Source: Anaerolineae bacterium (lineage in GTDB: Bacteria; Chloroflexota; Anaerolineae; JAFGEY01). Taken from it: DNA of 13,007 nucleotides. This document shows, in pieces, positions 4,358-13,007 of the stretch. Both the position numbers and the translations under genes were made by a program. The stretch covers positions 1 through 13,007 of the forward strand of contig JAFGEY010000363.1 of the NCBI GenBank assembly GCA_016931365.1, read 5' to 3'. The notes beneath the pieces are model-generated. The model did no database searches and was not told the origin of the DNA. It saw nothing but the letters and a program-made list of their open reading frames with translations. Every line of letters starts with the position of its first letter. Positions within the stretch are counted from its first letter, which is position 1.

Positions 4358-4366
4358 GTGTGCTTG

Positions 4367-4382
4367 TTGCAATCAATTGCAA
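4367..4382. promoter_or_regulatory. Palindromic operator, Nur-like TTGCAA-N4-TTGCAA
   Basis: A perfect 16-bp palindrome (TTGCAATCAATTGCAA) starts ten bases after the -10 box, over the predicted transcription start, where a bound repressor would block initiation. Fur-family proteins bind AT-rich inverted repeats of about this size. The Streptomyces nickel regulator Nur is known to use TTGCAA half-sites with a 5-base spacer; here the spacer is 4. The operon it controls ends with a Fur-family gene, the likely binder. A looser repeat CAATT-N7-AATTG (4386-4402) follows and could be a second, weak site. Confidence 0.68.
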
Positions 4383-4413
4383 TAACAATTCAACCACAAT
4401 TGGGGAGGCAAGC

Positions 4414-5064
4414 ATGCACATTCCGGACGGATTTCTGAACACGGCCACGAGCGTCGTGACCTGGGCCGCATCAACGGGCGGCGTGGCAGTGGCGGTGCGC
4501 CGGGTCAACAAGACGCTGACCGAGCGCCAGGTGCCGTTGATGGGCGTTTCGGCGGCGTTCATCTTTGCCGCGCAGATGATGAACTTCACCGTCGCTGGCG
4601 GCACATCGGGCCACCTGCTGGGCGGCGCGTTGGCGGCGATTTTGCTCGGCCCGTGGGCGGGCACGCTGGTGATTACCTGCGTGCTGGCCGTGCAGGCGCT
4701 ACTCTTTCAAGATGGCGGGCTGCTGGCCCTGGGCGCGAACATTTTCAACATGGCCCTGGTTGGAGTATGGTCGGGCTGGCTGGTCTACGCCGGCCTCAAG
4801 CGGCTGCTCGGCGAAAAAGGGTGGGCGGTGATTGCGCGCGGTTTCGTCGCCGGCTGGGTGTCAGTGGTGATCGCCTCGCTGCTGGCGGCGGTCGAACTGG
4901 GTCTGTCCGGCGCATCGCCATGGGGGGTAGTGCTCCCGGCGATGGGCGGCGTACACGCCCTGATCGGCATCGGCGAGGGGTTGATTACGGTGGCCGTGCT
5001 GGCCTTTGTGAACGCCACCCGCCCCGACCTGCTGGCGCTGCGCGCGTCGGCGACCGAAGCGTGA
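4414..5064 (+). CDS. cbiM: ECF nickel/cobalt transporter substrate-binding subunit CbiM/NikM
   Basis: This 216-residue integral membrane subunit binds Ni2+ or Co2+ and, with the N, Q and O subunits, forms an energy-coupling-factor importer. The start is fixed by the family's invariant N-terminus (MHIPDGFL) and by GGGGAGG (4402-4408) five bases upstream; an in-frame GTG at 4360 would add 18 residues, destroy the metal site and remove the operator from the leader. In NikM structures the metal is held by the N-terminal amine of Met1, His2 and His67; here His2 is present and a histidine falls exactly at 67 (GTSGHLLGG). Several hydrophobic segments follow, with a conserved-looking NxFNMAL-type stretch (ANIFNMALVG). 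The nickel or cobalt choice cannot be read from the protein; the Nur-like operator leans to nickel. It is first gene of a five-gene operon. Confidence 0.93.
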   Translation: MHIPDGFLNTATSVVTWAASTGGVAVAVRRVNKTLTERQVPLMGVSAAFIFAAQMMNFTVAGGTSGHLLGGALAAILLGPWAGTLVITCVLAVQALLFQDGGLLALGANIFNMALVGVWSGWLVYAGLKRLLGEKGWAVIARGFVAGWVSVVIASLLAAVELGLSGASPWGVVLPAMGGVHALIGIGEGLITVAVLAFVNATRPDLLALRASATEA

Positions 5065-5072
5065 GGTGAGAG

Positions 5073-5372
5073 ATGAACTGGTTGAAAAAGTATTGGTGGG
5101 TTGTCGGGCTGCTGATCGCCTTGATAGTGGCCCTGTTTTCGCCGCTGGCCTCGCCGCATCTCGACGGGCTGGAGCGCGTCGCCGAAGACAAGGGGTTTCT
5201 CGACCGGGCGCAGGACGCGCCGTATGAAATCATTCCCGATTACGCGTTCCCGGGCATCGCCAACACGAACGCTGCGACCATCGTCGCCGGGCTGGTCGGC
5301 ACGCTGTTGATGTTTGGCCTCGGCTACGGCCTGGCCTGGGCGCTGCGCCGTCGAGCCAAAGCGGCCGGATGA
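5073..5372 (+). CDS. PDGLE-domain protein, CbiN/NikN-like subunit
   Basis: This 99-residue membrane protein is the small auxiliary subunit of the metal ECF importer, needed in related systems for metal loading of the M subunit. It has two membrane segments (about 7-26 and 66-88). Between them an outward loop carries HLDGLERVAEDKGF, matching the DGLE core of the PDGLE domain often found beside or fused to CbiM/NikM. The ATG at 5073 has a good upstream purine tract (GAGGTGAG), 8 bases after the cbiM stop, and its stop overlaps the cbiQ start by four bases (ATGA), so translation is probably coupled. The role is inferred from domain and position. Sequence differs enough from enteric CbiN that a cbiN symbol is not given. 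Confidence 0.85.
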   Translation: MNWLKKYWWVVGLLIALIVALFSPLASPHLDGLERVAEDKGFLDRAQDAPYEIIPDYAFPGIANTNAATIVAGLVGTLLMFGLGYGLAWALRRRAKAAG

Positions 5373-6166
5373 CACTGCACCTGGCTCTGGAGCCCTATCA
5401 CGTCGCTGACAGCCTGATTCACCGGCTCGATGCCCGGCTCAAGCTATTGGCGACGCTGGCGTTTGTGTTGGCGGCGACCTGCCTGCCGCCGTCGGCGTGG
5501 ACGGCGCTGCTTGGGTTGTCCCTCATCGTGGCGACGCTGCTGATCGCCTCGCGCGTGCCGCCGTCGGTGGCGCTCAAGCGCTCGCTGATCGCACTGCCTT
5601 TTGCGAGCATGATTGCCCTGTCGATCCCGTTCACGCACGTCGGCCAAACACTGTGGAGCGCGCAGTTCGGGCGCTGGACGTTGGCGGTCACCGATCAGGG
5701 CCTGACCCTGTTTGCGTCGATCGTGATCAAAGCGTGGCTGTCGGTGCTGGTCAGTGGGCTACTGGTGGCAACCACGTCCTTTCCAACCCTGCTCCAGGCG
5801 ATGCAAGCCCTGCGTGTCCCACGCATCTTGATCACCATTATCTCGTTTATGTACCGCTACCTGTTTGTCCTGGTCGACGAAGCAACGCGCCTGCAAACGG
5901 CCCGCCAGGCGCGCTCGGCGGGCGGCGCGCGGGCGGGTGGCACAATGCTCTGGCGGATCAAGGTGCTGGGCGGGATGATCGGTTCGTTGTTCATTCGCAG
6001 TTATGAGCGCAGCGAACGCATCTATCAGGCGATGTTGTCGCGCGGTTATGATGGACAATGGCCCGCGCTGACCCAACCCGCGTGGCAGCCGCGGGATACC
6101 TGGGCCGGCGTTTTGATTTTTACATCTCTGGCTTGTATCGTTATACTTGGATATGTACCGGGTTGA
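5369..6166 (+). CDS. cbiQ: ECF transporter transmembrane (T) subunit CbiQ
   Basis: This 265-residue transmembrane coupling subunit links the metal-binding M/N subunits to the CbiO ATPase. The N-terminus has the family motif HRLDARLKLL (18-27), followed by hydrophobic segments. Two cytoplasmic coupling-helix motifs of the X-R-X kind are visible: ARS in ARQARSAGG (178-186) and SRG in the RSYERSERIYQAMLSRGYDG block (210-229), both typical of CbiQ/EcfT. The start overlaps the previous stop as ATGA. One hydrophobic segment closes the protein (about 245-262). The stop at 6166 is two bases before the cbiO start. Length matches the family. Confidence 0.93.
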   Translation: MTLHLALEPYHVADSLIHRLDARLKLLATLAFVLAATCLPPSAWTALLGLSLIVATLLIASRVPPSVALKRSLIALPFASMIALSIPFTHVGQTLWSAQFGRWTLAVTDQGLTLFASIVIKAWLSVLVSGLLVATTSFPTLLQAMQALRVPRILITIISFMYRYLFVLVDEATRLQTARQARSAGGARAGGTMLWRIKVLGGMIGSLFIRSYERSERIYQAMLSRGYDGQWPALTQPAWQPRDTWAGVLIFTSLACIVILGYVPG

Positions 6167-6168
6167 AT

Positions 6169-6930
6169 ATGTGTCCGATCATTGAAATTGAAAATCTCTG
6201 CTTTTCCTATCCCGATGGACGTCCGGCGCTGAACGGCATCGATCTGAACGTGAGGGCGGGTGAAAAGGTCGCCGTGGTCGGGCCGAACGGGGCGGGCAAA
6301 TCGACCTTATTTCTGCACCTCAACGGCATTTTGAGCGGTTCACCGTCGCATGGCGCAGGTCGCGTGTGCGTAGCGGGGATCGAGGTCAATGAGCGGACGG
6401 CGCGGAAGGTTCGTGCGCAAGTTGGCCTGGTCTTTCAAAACCCCGACGATCAACTCTTTTCGACCACCGTATTCGAGGATGTGGCTTTTGGCCCGCTGCA
6501 CATGGGCCTGCCCGCGGCCGATGTGCGGGTGCGGGTCGAGCGGGCCTTGTCGGCGGTGGCAATGCGCGGCTACGAAGCGCGAATGCCGCACCATCTCAGC
6601 CTGGGCGAGCGCAAGCGGATCGCCATCGCCACCGTCTTGTCGATGGAGCCGGATATCCTGGCCCTCGATGAGCCGTCGGCGGGGCTAGACCCGCGCGCGC
6701 GGCGCAGCCTGATCGCACTGCTGCGCTCGCTGCCGCAGACCATGCTCATCGCTACGCACGATATGCGCCTGGTGTGGGAGTTGTGCCCGCGCACGGTCGT
6801 GCTGGATGGCGGCCGCGTCGCCGCCGATGGCGCGACGAGCGAACTGCTCCGAGACGAGTCGTTGATGGAGCAACACGGGCTGGAGACGCCATTGGAAGCG
6901 GTCGCCCCGGCAATGATGGCGGTTTGCTGA
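6169..6930 (+). CDS. cbiO: ECF nickel/cobalt transporter ATP-binding subunit CbiO
   Basis: This 253-residue cytoplasmic ATPase powers the metal importer. The frame is open back to 6058, inside cbiQ, but the ATG at 6169, two bases after the cbiQ stop, gives the usual CbiO N-terminus (strand, then FSYPDG). All ABC elements are present: Walker A GPNGAGKST (38-46), Q-loop Q90 in the CbiO-like VFQNPDDQLF, signature LSLGE (143-147), Walker B ILALDEP (163-169), D-loop AGLD (171-174) and switch His197. The signature differs from the common LSGGQ; the exporter ATPase at the window start also has LSLG, so this is variation, not decay. The ribosome site is weak, consistent with coupling to cbiQ. As only one ATPase gene is present, it would act as a homodimer, as in other Cbi/Nik systems. 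Confidence 0.94.
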   Translation: MCPIIEIENLCFSYPDGRPALNGIDLNVRAGEKVAVVGPNGAGKSTLFLHLNGILSGSPSHGAGRVCVAGIEVNERTARKVRAQVGLVFQNPDDQLFSTTVFEDVAFGPLHMGLPAADVRVRVERALSAVAMRGYEARMPHHLSLGERKRIAIATVLSMEPDILALDEPSAGLDPRARRSLIALLRSLPQTMLIATHDMRLVWELCPRTVVLDGGRVAADGATSELLRDESLMEQHGLETPLEAVAPAMMAVC

Positions 6931-6948
6931 CGGACACAGGAGGCAACG

Positions 6949-7395
6949 ATGGCATGTGAACAAGCTTTTCTCAAAAAACTGCGCGAAAAGGGCTTTCGGC
7001 TGACGCCGCAGCGCGAGATCATCCTCTCAGCGTTGCACGAAATCGAAGGGGTGGCAACGGCAGAAAAGATTTATGCGCGTGTTCAAACGTTCAGCATAGC
7101 CATCGACATCTCGACCGTGTACCGCACGCTCGACCTGCTGCAAGAATTTGGCATTGTTGCCTGCATCGACGCCGGCGACGGGCAGCGGCGCTACGAACTG
7201 CTCGGTCTGCACGGACCGCACATCCACCTAGTCTGCCAACGGTGCGGCGCGGTCAGCGGCATCGAGCTGGCCGAAGCAGAAGGGTTTGCCGATCACCTGC
7301 GCGCCCTACACGGCTTTGCTGCCGACCTGGAACACCTGTCCATCTCCGGTGTGTGCCAAGCATGTAGGCAAAAAGAGCCCGAGATCGTTAAATGA
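6949..7395 (+). CDS. Fur-family metalloregulator, probable nickel (Nur) or zinc/iron sensor
   Basis: This 148-residue DNA-binding repressor probably senses metal in the cytoplasm and shuts the upstream operon. AGGAGG (6938-6943) lies five bases before the ATG. Residues 1-85 form the winged helix domain (LTPQREIILSAL, 18-29; recognition helix DISTVYRTLDLL, 53-64). The hinge is followed by the metal region: H88, H91, H93, structural zinc pairs C96-x2-C99 and C136-x2-C139, and H129. The motif HGPHIHLVCQRCG is typical of Fur/Zur/Nur proteins, but the residues do not safely separate these subtypes. Its place 18 bases after cbiO, and the TTGCAA palindrome at the operon promoter, suggest autoregulated control of Ni/Co uptake and hence a Nur-like role; that is inference. 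Zur or Fur activity on other targets remains possible. Confidence 0.92.
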   Translation: MACEQAFLKKLREKGFRLTPQREIILSALHEIEGVATAEKIYARVQTFSIAIDISTVYRTLDLLQEFGIVACIDAGDGQRRYELLGLHGPHIHLVCQRCGAVSGIELAEAEGFADHLRALHGFAADLEHLSISGVCQACRQKEPEIVK

Positions 7396-10281: not shown

Positions 10282-11394
10282 TCAATGACCGGCCGCCTTG
10301 AGGCCGTGCCCGGTAAAGGTTGAAACGATCAGTTCCCCCGCTGCGACCGTGCGCACATACTGCGACACCCCCGCCATCGCGGCTGCCGCCGTCGGCTCGA
10401 TGTAAAAACCCCGCCGCCACATTGCGTGCAGCGCAGCCTGAATTTCGGCCTCATCCACGGCGATGAACCATCCTCCACTCTCGCGCACTGCGCGTACGAT
10501 CTGCGGGCCGCGCACCGGATCGGCAATGGCGATCCCTTCGGCGACGGTGGGCTGCCTGGCAATATGCAGGTTTTTGCCTGAATTTTCATTAAACGCCTTG
10601 TGCAGCGGCGCGCACGCCTGCGCCTGCACGCCGACCAGCCGGGGCAAGCGGTCGATCACTCCCGCACGGAGCAAATCCCTGAACCCGATGAATGCACCCA
10701 ACAGCAGGGTACCGTTGCCCACCGGCAAGATAACCGCATCGGGCGCGCGCCAGCCAAGCTGCTCGCAAACCTCGTAGGCCCAGGTCTTGGTGCCGTGAAA
10801 GAAAAAGGGATTCCACGAATGGCTGGCGTAATAAGTTGTCTCTGCGGCCGCGAGTACGGCGCGGGCGGTATCCTCGCGGCTGCCGGGCACCTTGATCAGC
10901 CGCGCCCCGTATGCCTCGATCTGGGCCATCTTGGCCGGCGAGGTGCTGGCCAGTACGTAAATCTCGCAGGCAATGCCCGCGCGGGCGCAGTAGGCGGCGA
11001 TCGCGCAGCCGGCATTGCCCGACGAATCCTCGACCACCCGCTCGATGCCCAACGCCCTGGCCTGGCTGATCAGCACCGATGCACCACGATCTTTGTACGA
11101 GCCGGTCGAAAAGAGCTGATCCTGCTTGACCCACACCACACGGCCCTCAAAATCAAGTGGGAGCAGCGGCGTAAAACCCTCATCCAGTGACACGATCCGG
11201 GCATCTGCGGGCAGCGGGATTGCCTCACGGTAACGCCACATGGTTGGCGGACGGCAGGCGATCACGTCGAGCGGAAAGCGAGGCGCAAACACAATGTCGA
11301 GCAGGCCGCCGCAGCGGCATCGCCAGCGCGGATCGTCGAGTGGGAAAACAGCCGCGCAAGATACGCATAAAAGGCTGGCAGGGGAACCTGGCAT
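10282..11394 (-). CDS. Threonine synthase-like PLP-dependent enzyme with N-terminal zinc ribbon
   Basis: This 370-residue cytoplasmic enzyme of the fold-type II PLP family most likely makes threonine from O-phosphohomoserine. The ATG at 11394 has GGAGG six bases upstream; the frame is open to 11478, but that part lacks a ribosome site and overlaps the probable promoter. Residues 10-28 hold a zinc ribbon (C10-x2-C13, C26-x-C28, then GG), common in threonine synthases. The PLP lysine is K101 in STGSYKDRG (96-104); SSGNAG (124-129) is the substrate/cofactor loop, and VGNGTLLLG (225-233) the phosphate-binding turn. The end carries TGHGLK, a threonine synthase hallmark. Two details, SSGN in place of the usual STGN and Tyr in place of Phe before K101, leave room for a related lyase or synthase, so no symbol is given. 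Its 3' end lies two bases from that of the convergent propeller gene. Confidence 0.85.
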   Translation of the reverse strand: MPGSPASLLCVSCAAVFPLDDPRWRCRCGGLLDIVFAPRFPLDVIACRPPTMWRYREAIPLPADARIVSLDEGFTPLLPLDFEGRVVWVKQDQLFSTGSYKDRGASVLISQARALGIERVVEDSSGNAGCAIAAYCARAGIACEIYVLASTSPAKMAQIEAYGARLIKVPGSREDTARAVLAAAETTYYASHSWNPFFFHGTKTWAYEVCEQLGWRAPDAVILPVGNGTLLLGAFIGFRDLLRAGVIDRLPRLVGVQAQACAPLHKAFNENSGKNLHIARQPTVAEGIAIADPVRGPQIVRAVRESGGWFIAVDEAEIQAALHAMWRRGFYIEPTAAAAMAGVSQYVRTVAAGELIVSTFTGHGLKAAGH

Positions 11395-11421
11395 TTTTCG
11401 CCTCCATCCGAAATTTTGCCC

Positions 11422-11450
11422 AGTGTATCCGAGATGCGATACGGGCGCAA
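11422..11450 (-). promoter_or_regulatory. Possible promoter of the threonine synthase-like gene
   Basis: On the minus strand TTGCGC (11450-11445) and TACACT (11427-11422) are 17 bases apart, which would start transcription about 20 bases before the ATG at 11394. The -35 match is poor (three of six), so this is tentative. Confidence 0.4.
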
Positions 11451-11479
11451 ATGTAAACCCCACTGCGCATAAACCCAAT

Positions 11480-11508
11480 TTGACGAATCCGGAATCTTGT
11501 GGTACACT
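11480..11508 (+). promoter_or_regulatory. Promoter of the cimA leader transcript
   Basis: TTGACG (11480-11485) and TACACT (11503-11508) are separated by 17 bases, and TG at 11500-11501 makes an extended -10. Transcription should start near 11515, about 20 bases before the leader-peptide ATG and about 383 bases before cimA. Confidence 0.75.
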
Positions 11509-11534
11509 CTATTCAAGTCGATTGAGGTACAGCA

Positions 11535-11642
11535 ATGTCTAGCTCATCAACCACAAACCAGACACTGGCACTCTCCCTTATTTTGGTTCTTGGCGTCCTC
11601 CTGATTACGGAGGCGTTTGTGGTTGGGAGAGCGTCGGCTTGA
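11535..11642 (+). CDS. Branched-chain amino acid leader peptide (35 aa) of a transcription attenuator
   Basis: This short ORF begins with ATG, six bases after GAGGT (11524-11528), and ends in TGA. After a Ser/Thr-rich start (MSSSSTTNQT), residues 11-30 contain 7 Leu, 2 Ile and 4 Val, and the peptide ends in GRASA. Its purpose is probably to be translated, not to yield a working protein: ribosomes short of charged Leu, Ile or Val tRNAs would stall between RNA segments 1 and 2 of the attenuator, while fluent ribosomes would reach the stop codon and cover segment 2. Known ilv/leu leader peptides of enteric bacteria share this kind of composition and position. The alternative, a one-helix membrane microprotein, would also be hydrophobic, but would not explain the matched RNA pairings or the terminator 23 bases past the stop. 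Such a short gene is likely to be missed by standard callers. Confidence 0.83.
   Translation: MSSSSTTNQTLALSLILVLGVLLITEAFVVGRASA
11548..11625 (+). promoter_or_regulatory. Attenuator 1:2 stem (pre-emptor of the antiterminator)
   Basis: CAACCACAAAC (11548-11558) pairs perfectly over 11 bp with GTTTGTGGTTG (11615-11625). Segment 1 lies in leader codons 5-8 and segment 2 in codons 27-31, on either side of the main Leu/Ile/Val block. The enclosed loop has its own 5-bp hairpin (CCTCC 11597-11601, GGAGG 11609-11613). When this stem forms, segment 2 cannot pair with the terminator arm. Confidence 0.72.
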
Positions 11643-11676
11643 TTCACCCCTAAGAAGAAGAAAAGGCCTCCCAACC
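11621..11676 (+). promoter_or_regulatory. Attenuator 2:3 antiterminator
   Basis: GGTTGGGAG (11621-11629) pairs perfectly over 9 bp with CTCCCAACC (11668-11676); with A11630 bulged, two more pairs form (11631-11632 with 11666-11667). This takes the whole 5' arm and loop of the terminator, so antiterminator and terminator exclude each other. It would form when a ribosome stalled on the leader peptide covers segment 1. Confidence 0.75.
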
Positions 11677-11690
11677 GGGAGGCTTTTTTT
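11661..11690 (+). terminator. Intrinsic terminator (attenuator 3:4 stem)
   Basis: GCCTCCC (11666-11672), loop AACC, and GGGAGGC (11677-11683) are followed by seven Ts (11684-11690). Four As before the stem (11661-11664) can extend it. It lies in the leader of cimA, about 207 bases before its start codon, with no gene of ordinary size in front of it, which is why it is read as an attenuator and not a gene-end signal. Confidence 0.92.
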
Positions 11691-11897
11691 GTGCCACCGC
11701 TAACCCGGACACAGCCGTCCACCCCGAAGAGCAAAGCCGCTTTCCCGGTTCAAGTCGCTCGTATTCCGTCAAACTGAATTTGATATAAAGTCCTGCACAC
11801 GGGCCAGGCTTTGCCTTATCAGTATTAGTTTGAAAGAGTACGCGTCGAGTTGAACGCGAAAATCGGTCTTGTACCCGCTCGAGGAAAGGAAAAGGCT
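11691..11897 (+). other. Leader between attenuator terminator and cimA
   Basis: This 207-base noncoding stretch links the terminator to cimA. A purine-rich ribosome site (GAGGAAAGGAAAAGG, 11881-11895) precedes the ATG. TGATATAAA at 11781-11789 is an extended -10-like sequence without a recognisable -35, and could give low constitutive expression. Only short hairpins such as GGAC-N6-GTCC are seen; no riboswitch or T-box is recognised. Confidence 0.45.
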
Positions 11898-13007
11898 ATG
11901 TCCGCCAAGCTGCAATTGTATGACACGACGCTGCGCGACGGCACGCAGCGCGAAGGGCTTTCGCTTTCACTGAACGACAAGCTGAAAATTGCCCAGCGCC
12001 TGGATTGGCTGGGTATGGCTTACATTGAGGGCGGCTGGCCCGGATCGAACCCCAAGGACATTGCCTTTTTTGAGCAAGCCACAAAGCTGAACCTTACCCA
12101 CGCCGTGATCACCGCCTTTGGCAGCACCCGCCGCGCCGATACGCCGGTGGAGCAGGATGCGCAAATCCGCACGCTGCTGGCAGCGGAAACACGGGCGGTC
12201 GCCATTTTTGGCAAAAGCTGGGACCTGCACGTCGAGCACGTGCTCAAAACCACGCGCGACGAAAACCTGCACATGATTGCCGACAGCGTGGCCTTTGCCA
12301 GGAGCCACGGGCGTGAGGTGATCTATGACGCCGAGCACTTTTTCGACGGCTACAAGGCTGACCCCGCTTACGCGCTCGCCACCTTGCGCGCCGCCGCCCA
12401 GGCCGGAGCCGCCGTACTGGTGCTGTGCGATACCAATGGCGGCACCTTGACGACGGAACTGCAAGAGATCGTGCGTACGGTCAAACGTCAATTCAACGGC
12501 GGTGAACTAGATCGCACGCCATTGGGCATCCACTGTCACAACGACAGCGGACTGGCCGTCGCCAACACGCTGGTCGCCGTGCAAGAAGGCGCGGCCCATG
12601 TCCAGGGCACGATCAACGGCTATGGCGAACGCTGCGGCAACGCTGATCTGTGCGTCGTCATCCCCAATTTGCAGCTCAAACTCGGTTTCTCTTGCGTCAA
12701 TCCCGAGCAATTGGCTGAGCTGACCCAGGTATCTCATTACGTTAGCAACCGCGCCAACCTGACCCCCGACACACACCAGCCCTACGTCGGCCATAGCGCC
12801 TTTGCCCACAAGGGCGGCATGCACGTCGACGGGATGCGCAAACATCAAAGCACCTTCCAGCACATCGATCCGACGCTGGTCGGCAATCAGATGCGCTTTG
12901 TCGTCTCCGAACTGGCCGGACGCAGCAACATCCTCTACAAGGTCGAAGAACTCAACATGGGCATCCAGCTCGGCAAAGAGCAGGCGCGCATGGTGGTCGA
13001 GCAGATC
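11898..13007 (+). CDS. cimA: (R)-citramalate synthase (3'-truncated by window)
   Basis: This enzyme condenses pyruvate and acetyl-CoA to citramalate, the first step of the threonine-independent isoleucine route (citramalate to 2-oxobutyrate). The 370 visible residues of an expected 500 or more start at an ATG with a strong purine-rich ribosome site. Present are the metal-site motif LRDGTQREG (12-20), the CimA-typical [13 protein letters not shown] (42-54), the signature HCHNDSGLA (212-220), [10 protein letters not shown] (241-250), [12 protein letters not shown] (301-312) and [10 protein letters not shown] (335-344). The [10 protein letters not shown] segment and the whole pattern fit the CimA subgroup (TIGR00977 type) better than 2-isopropylmalate or homocitrate synthase. 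The C-terminal LeuA regulatory domain lies past the window end, so feedback control cannot be judged. Expression is probably set by the Leu/Ile/Val attenuator upstream. The divergent neighbour is a threonine synthase-like gene. Confidence 0.93.

Follow-up and report, generated by a model that had tools for sequence, protein, structure and literature searches.

A probable ribosome-mediated attenuator upstream of citramalate synthase and its recurrence in an apparently undescribed leader family of Chloroflexota

The cimA leader in the window

The window (the whole stretch of 13,007 nucleotides that was analysed) ends within cimA, which was identified as citramalate synthase by TIGR00977 (546.9 bits, cut-off 450), in agreement with the initial annotation. 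A threonine-synthase-like gene (10282-11478, - strand) is divergent from the cimA leader, so that two routes towards isoleucine adjoin; all thrC models score below their cut-offs for it. The stretch 4360-7395 holds genes for a cobalt-type ECF transporter, with the CbiQ model above its cut-off and the CbiM and ATPase models below, followed by a Fur-family-like regulator whose models are below cut-off. The region preceding cimA contains these features:

11480-11508, + strand: sigma-70-type promoter with an extended -10 (TTGACG-17-TACACT, TG before the -10)
11524-11527, + strand: GAGG, candidate ribosome-binding sequence of the leader ORF, by position
11535-11642, + strand: leader peptide ORF of 35 codons, ATG at 11535, peptide MSSSSTTNQTLALSLILVLGVLLITEAFVVGRASA; Leu/Val/Ile-rich, with homologous leaders
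11548-11558, + strand: segment 1, complement of 11615-11625 (11/11 Watson-Crick pairs)
11597-11613, + strand: hairpin A, CCTCC-TGATTAC-GGAGG, proposed RNA polymerase pause hairpin; conserved in the family, with covariation
11621-11632, + strand: segment 2, GGTTGGGAG-A-GC, 5' half of the antiterminator; overlaps the leader ORF at its end
11666-11676, + strand: segment 3, GCCTCCCAACC, 3' half of the antiterminator; also the 5' arm and loop of the terminator
11677-11690, + strand: segment 4, GGGAGGC plus seven T, 3' arm and T tail of the terminator
11621-11629/11668-11676 and 11631-11632/11666-11667, + strand: antiterminator (2:3) helix, 9+2 pairs
11666-11672/11677-11683, + strand: terminator stem of 7 pairs, loop AACC, T run at 11684-11690
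11898-13007, + strand: cimA, ATG at 11898, running off the window

The extended -10 promoter, the ribosome site upstream of the ATG, the 35-codon ORF, the 2:3 pairing and the 7-bp terminator with its seven Ts (11666-11690) had all been described in the initial annotation and are present. A scan of 11200-11900 returned this promoter alone (shuffle expectation 0.3). Residues 11-30 of the leader peptide include 13 Leu, Ile or Val (background 22%, binomial P 5e-5), as first described, and the 21 codons before the V-G at segment 2 comprise 7 Leu, 3 Val and 2 Ile. This density is reached by 3 of the 237 short ORFs of the window, a count that includes nested starts and the leader itself, so that the leader ORF alone is only suggestive. 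Its stop codon at 11640 is 19 nt from the start of segment 2. The hairpin upstream of segment 2 that is kept in related leaders is hairpin A, which is listed by the scan that gave the promoter and was missing from the initial list of pairings. A generic terminator scan listed the terminator stem on the - strand only; it is absent from the + strand list, probably because the T run can pair with the AAAAG before the stem.

Predicted folding of the leader

In the mechanism that we infer, which covers transcription, ribosome stalling, termination, pausing and the regulatory outcome, a ribosome would translate the 35-codon leader behind RNA polymerase. With charged Leu, Val and Ile tRNAs plentiful, it would reach the stop codon at 11640 and cover segment 2 (11621-11632), leaving segment 3 to pair with segment 4, and transcription would end near 11690. 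When these tRNAs are short, the ribosome would stall within residues 11-24, segment 2 would be free to pair with the emerging segment 3, and transcription would proceed into cimA. Hairpin A lies just upstream of segment 2, and a pause of RNA polymerase there, giving the ribosome time to catch up, is probable from its fixed spacing. Starvation for Leu, Ile or Val would raise cimA expression by this mechanism, an outcome already put forward in the initial annotation.

Folding predictions for RNA ending at 11677 gave the antiterminator a probability of 0.91-1.00 when the 5' side was masked up to positions between 11558 and 11620, mimicking a stalled ribosome, of 0.28 with the mask to 11625, and of 0 from 11630, mimicking a ribosome at the stop codon. 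Together with the covariation described below, this bears out the predicted exclusion of the terminator by the antiterminator and its blocking by a ribosome at the stop codon. Hairpin A and the antiterminator are not mutually exclusive. The antiterminator also folds in the model without any ribosome (0.74-0.99, RNA ending at 11677), and loss of leader translation might therefore not give termination. Once the full terminator is transcribed, it has a probability of 0.87-1.00 at all seven mask positions; the outcome must therefore be set kinetically, as it is in known attenuators. A pairing of GGAGGC with GCCTCC (11609-11614/11666-11671), which had been raised as a complication, can form and is predicted at <=0.01.

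The 1:2 pairing is complete in the window, as claimed, with a secondary role. With segment 1 free, its probability is 0.54-0.75 in RNA ending at 11660, the value with no ribosome being 0.75, and 0.01-0.20 in RNA ending at 11677, the antiterminator winning once segment 3 emerges. Upstream of segment 2, its best complement in the window scores -18.8, against -13.2 (sd 1.8) in 30 shuffles. Among 102 family leaders (one of the 103 described below has no upstream sequence), the complement upstream of hairpin A beats the codon-block shuffle mean in 69, with a mean of -14.8 vs -12.9. From these models the 1:2 protector is a modest and position-variable tendency, not a fixed element.

Distribution, target genes and covariation of the leader family

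Homologous leaders lacking the peptide or the pairings had been named in the initial annotation as evidence against its reading. We scanned up to 600 nt upstream of 124 cimA loci for a leader plus terminator, with five upstream regions shorter and a few genomes represented twice, and a convincing leader was found in two: L081, from the genome with the closest cimA found (G010, 74% identical), and L115 (G070). Both encode Ile-run peptides. A search of the family of G010 returned G010 alone. A third locus, L114, lies at a contig end and starts inside a nearly identical terminator; two more that were flagged in the scan (L032 and L063) appear accidental. Most cimA orthologues thus have no adjacent leader. 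In several leaderless loci the 250 nt upstream of cimA resemble coding sequence by eye, so gene order may account for the missing leaders.

The motif GGTTGGGA, located where the leader ORF ends, is common to the window, L081 and L115. The pattern GGTTGGGA-N(30-60)-TCCCAACC matched 23 of 396 genomes of the class and a reversed-pattern control matched 19 (hand count); the pattern by itself is therefore unenriched and no proof. Eleven of its sites, the only ones kept and chosen for having a leader ORF and a terminator, combine a terminator with a leader that is rich in Leu/Ile/Val and encodes V-G-R or V-G-S at segment 2, and one of them is L115.

A covariance model of 13 leaders, window included (R1), matched 252 of 396 genomes at E<=0.1 and 206 at E<=0.001 (hand count; E-values per genome) in the likely class of the window, Anaerolineae. 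Across the phylum, 59 of 400 genomes had a match at E<=0.001 and 341 had none at this threshold. A second model (R2) was made from 44 ilvB/ilvD leaders of other genomes, with no cimA leader and without the window. It found the window leader over model positions 1-147 of 147 with 81.1 bits and a roughly calibrated E-value of 4.2e-16 in 31,507 bases, and gave 50.3 and 37.1 bits for the other two cimA leaders. R2 is independent of the window in its rows and not wholly so in their discovery, because they were found through R1, which held the window. In a second Chloroflexota class (that of G590, Chloroflexaceae) R2 matched 74 of 120 genomes at E<=0.01 and 57 at E<=0.001 (hand count); in an outgroup class (that of G747, Geobacter) it matched 4 of 117 at E<=0.01 and none at E<=0.001. 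The genomes of loci L045, L021 and L001 gave weak R2 matches (E 0.18-0.81), and that of L011 gave none at E<=1. Both models favour branched-chain leaders, because both contain the Leu/Ile/Val codon region. A third model (R3) had over-generous E-values and many terminator-only matches; 40 of its matches, chosen as odd or missing from the R1 list, were fetched, and 18 were judged chance (L371, L375, L376, L383, L387-L389, L391, L392, L394-L400, L402 and L403). From these searches the window leader belongs to an RNA leader family of Chloroflexota that is apparently undescribed.

Of the best 120 R1 matches listed for the class, all but one contain an ORF in which six or more of 12 residues are Leu/Ile/Val, a property that R1 itself favours. 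The association with target genes is not built in, because R1 holds no information on downstream genes: 110 of these 120 matches precede branched-chain genes (ilvB 54, ilvD 50, cimA 2, leuS 2, leuA-like 1 and ilvE 1; representatives checked by NCBIfam). The other ten are two contig ends, one apparent Liv-type ABC transporter (L272, by eye) and seven without a recognised target. Likewise, 21 of 22 R2 loci have ilvB or ilvD downstream, the remaining one (L312) preceding a DAHP synthase gene.

Several arrangements depart from a single leader before a recognised target. The seven copies for which no amino-acid gene was recognised downstream (L186, L195, L197, L200, L276, L284 and L303) may be orphans, copies in decay or small RNAs. 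Two loci carry tandem leader elements before one ilvB-type gene (L245 at 24-173 and 451-604; L205 at 2021-2164 and 2294-2430), which suggests serial attenuators. At the aspartokinase loci L373 and L390, the leaders begin roughly 10 nt downstream of a -10-like hexamer, and their mRNAs may be nearly leaderless, judging by this distance.

Run on the 44 ilvB/ilvD leaders aligned with MAFFT, RNAalifold recovered hairpin A and the terminator, with compensatory changes in 12 of 14 pairs. A larger alignment holds 103 matches, obtained by searching 99 of 120 fetched loci and the window with a model fitted to hairpin A and the terminator, from which the antiterminator was absent. Pairing reached 94.3% for hairpin A, 98.3% for the terminator and 87.5% for the antiterminator, the last with 33 cells changed on both sides, and none of 500 shuffles was as high on either of these two measures. 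For each of the three helices, the pairing or covariation score was reached by 0/500 shuffles; the number of pairs with double changes was reached by 14/500 (hairpin A), 1/500 (terminator) and 2/500 (antiterminator), all of these statistics ignoring shared ancestry. Covariation, which the initial annotation had suggested testing for segments 1-4, was thus found for hairpin A, the terminator and the antiterminator.

The strength of the terminator and its dominance at equilibrium (0.87-1.00) would also suit a promoter-proximal constitutive terminator or an mRNA-stabilising hairpin with an incidental leader ORF. This is extremely unlikely, as the antiterminator covaries although it was not part of the alignment model, the element recurs before amino-acid genes, and the leader codons match the target, as set out below.

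The geometry of the element is also conserved. Hairpin A is separated from segment 2 by 7 nt in 101 of the 103 matches and by 6 nt in the other two, and the T|G step of segment 2 lies 11 nt after the hairpin. A distance of 11 nt from the hairpin is the geometry of known hairpin pauses, and hairpin A is proposed as a pause hairpin because its fixed spacing matches it. In 98 of the 103 the stop codon falls within 37 nt of where segment 2 starts, and in 94 segment 2 is translated as V-G in the Leu/Ile/Val-rich frame.

Sensor codons and comparison with known attenuators

Outside the ilvB/ilvD majority, leaders were found to be rich in the amino acid that matches the gene downstream, with genes assigned by NCBIfam. 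Two cimA leaders (L199 and L208) are rich in Ile, four leuS leaders (L285, L293, L340 and L374) and one leuA-like leader (L235; a short gene of 316 aa, 451.2 against a cut-off of 455) in Leu, the metG leader (L369, start codon uncertain) in Met, and two aspartokinase leaders in Thr (L373 and L390; proteins above TIGR00657 (208.7) and below narrower models). The leader of a DAHP synthase gene (L343) has six Tyr codons in a row, and that of serA (L338) has 6 Thr and 3 Ser (single-leader P 0.14). The target amino acids were permuted 100000 times among 13 leaders, which were picked for a clear target gene, serA and the window included, and scored against background frequencies that are round numbers; no permutation reached the observed codon-target score. 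Enrichment in single leaders is weak (leuS P 0.02-0.09). The window leader shows no enrichment for Ile by itself (2 of 34 residues, P 0.6), although CimA serves isoleucine; its codon mix resembles that of the ilvB/ilvD leaders, which have means of 3.4-4.0 Ile, 5.5-5.7 Leu and 3.0-3.3 Val. Two leaders in G042, L386 with an argG-like gene downstream (by eye) and L385 with no gene, were considered as a possible Arg version; with three Arg in 27 residues it was set aside as weak and is outside the permutation test.

These leaders also bear on whether the peptide itself is conserved. The product of the ORF could be functional, as a small hydrophobic or arrest peptide with V-G-R at its end, the terminator belonging to its own mRNA; the peptide is hydrophobic, V-G-R recurs in many ilvB/ilvD leaders and, as noted, V-G at segment 2 is frequent. 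However, V-G-R is the product of translating segment 2, itself constrained by pairing, and segment 2 is read as R-L-G in three leuS leaders (L285, L340 and L374), the leuA-like leader and the DAHP synthase leader L343, and as P-L-G in the metG leader; the serA leader and the fourth leuS leader (L293) stop just before it. In all of them V-G-R is lost and the RNA motif kept, which points to the RNA, not the peptide, as the conserved entity. Tyr-run and Thr-rich leaders are also unlike strings of hydrophobic residues, and we consider a functional peptide very improbable.

Conservation of the RNA would equally be expected of a metabolite riboswitch or a T-box-like or protein-binding antiterminator that acts through GGTTGGGAGG with no ribosome, and nucleotide conservation is indeed strong in segment 2 and hairpin A. 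A ligand-specific RNA is, however, not expected to swap codon runs by target around an unchanged core. Moreover, Rfam 15 gave no family at gathering score in the window and a tRNA gene as the sole match in eight related loci, and control of this kind seems highly unlikely.

A ribosome-mediated attenuator, as originally proposed, is strongly supported by the recurrence of the element, its target genes, the covariation of three helices and the change of codons with target. We regard it as highly probable, from sequence and folding models, that the leader is a ribosome-mediated transcription attenuator of cimA in a Chloroflexota family that exchanges sensor codons by target; that the window leader is a genuine attenuator, from a modular family that appears to be undescribed, is very probable. 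The broader generalisation is likely, with somewhat more reserve: one RNA cassette in Chloroflexota, made of pause hairpin A, the GGTTGGGAGG antiterminator half and the CCTCCCAACC-GGGAGG terminator, would serve as a general amino-acid attenuator of biosynthesis, transport and tRNA-synthetase genes, retargeted through its sensor codons (Ile/Leu/Val, Ile, Leu, Met, Thr, Tyr and perhaps Ser).

Below threshold, the best Rfam family in 11450-11900 was RF01859 Phe_leader (31.3 bits, gathering 55); Thr_leader scored 14.9 (gathering 55), and Leu_leader was not listed there at E<=10. The window element differs from Phe_leader in this score below 55, in having one Phe codon in its leader and in its target, cimA. 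Leader attenuators of ilvB are described, in the available parts of the sources, in Corynebacterium, Mycobacterium and other Actinobacteria (PMC11857589, PMC13236596, PMC1262725, PMC10272879). They are alike in regulating acetolactate synthase operons by leader-peptide attenuation outside Proteobacteria, and differ in belonging to Actinobacteria; their comparison with the window RNA was made through Rfam scans only. Histidine leader peptides of Firmicutes (PMC2965389, PMC9413887) are also attenuators outside Proteobacteria, some of them before hisS-type genes; they differ in their phylum and, in the parts of these papers available, in responding to histidine only, with no mention there of a switch shared with other amino acids. 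According to the accessible text of a genome-wide survey of 2010, leader-peptide systems had, ermC aside, been shown only in Proteobacteria and Actinobacteria, to which the survey added Firmicutes (PMC2965389). Attenuator motifs may have arisen in gamma-proteobacteria, with very few transfers (PMC3766115, in the portion available). No Chloroflexota leader-peptide attenuator was found in the literature searched, as far as the available parts extend (including PMC2965389, PMC3766115, PMC4833913, PMC9413887 and PMC10272879); Lopatovskaya et al. 2010 (Mol Biol 44:128), whose subject is bacterial attenuation, may report some of these leaders.

A Chloroflexota family carried by between about half and two thirds of the sampled genomes of a single class would widen the range of leader-peptide regulation. 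If sensor codons are indeed exchanged on a conserved switch, the origin and retargeting of attenuators would be directly traceable, the amino acid that controls each operon could be predicted, and the cassette would be a compact, programmable amino-acid sensor.

A close parallel in mechanism exists with the enteric ilv and leu attenuators (Rfam Leu_leader for leu), in which a leader peptide rich in end-product codons is combined with competing hairpins and a U-tailed terminator, and which also precede branched-chain amino-acid genes, as the Chloroflexota family does. The latter differs from them in its phylum, in the use of one switch with varied sensor codons, in the cimA target and in the fixed spacing of hairpin A. 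The mechanism is thus already known, and one switch with exchangeable sensor codons appears to be new as a family.
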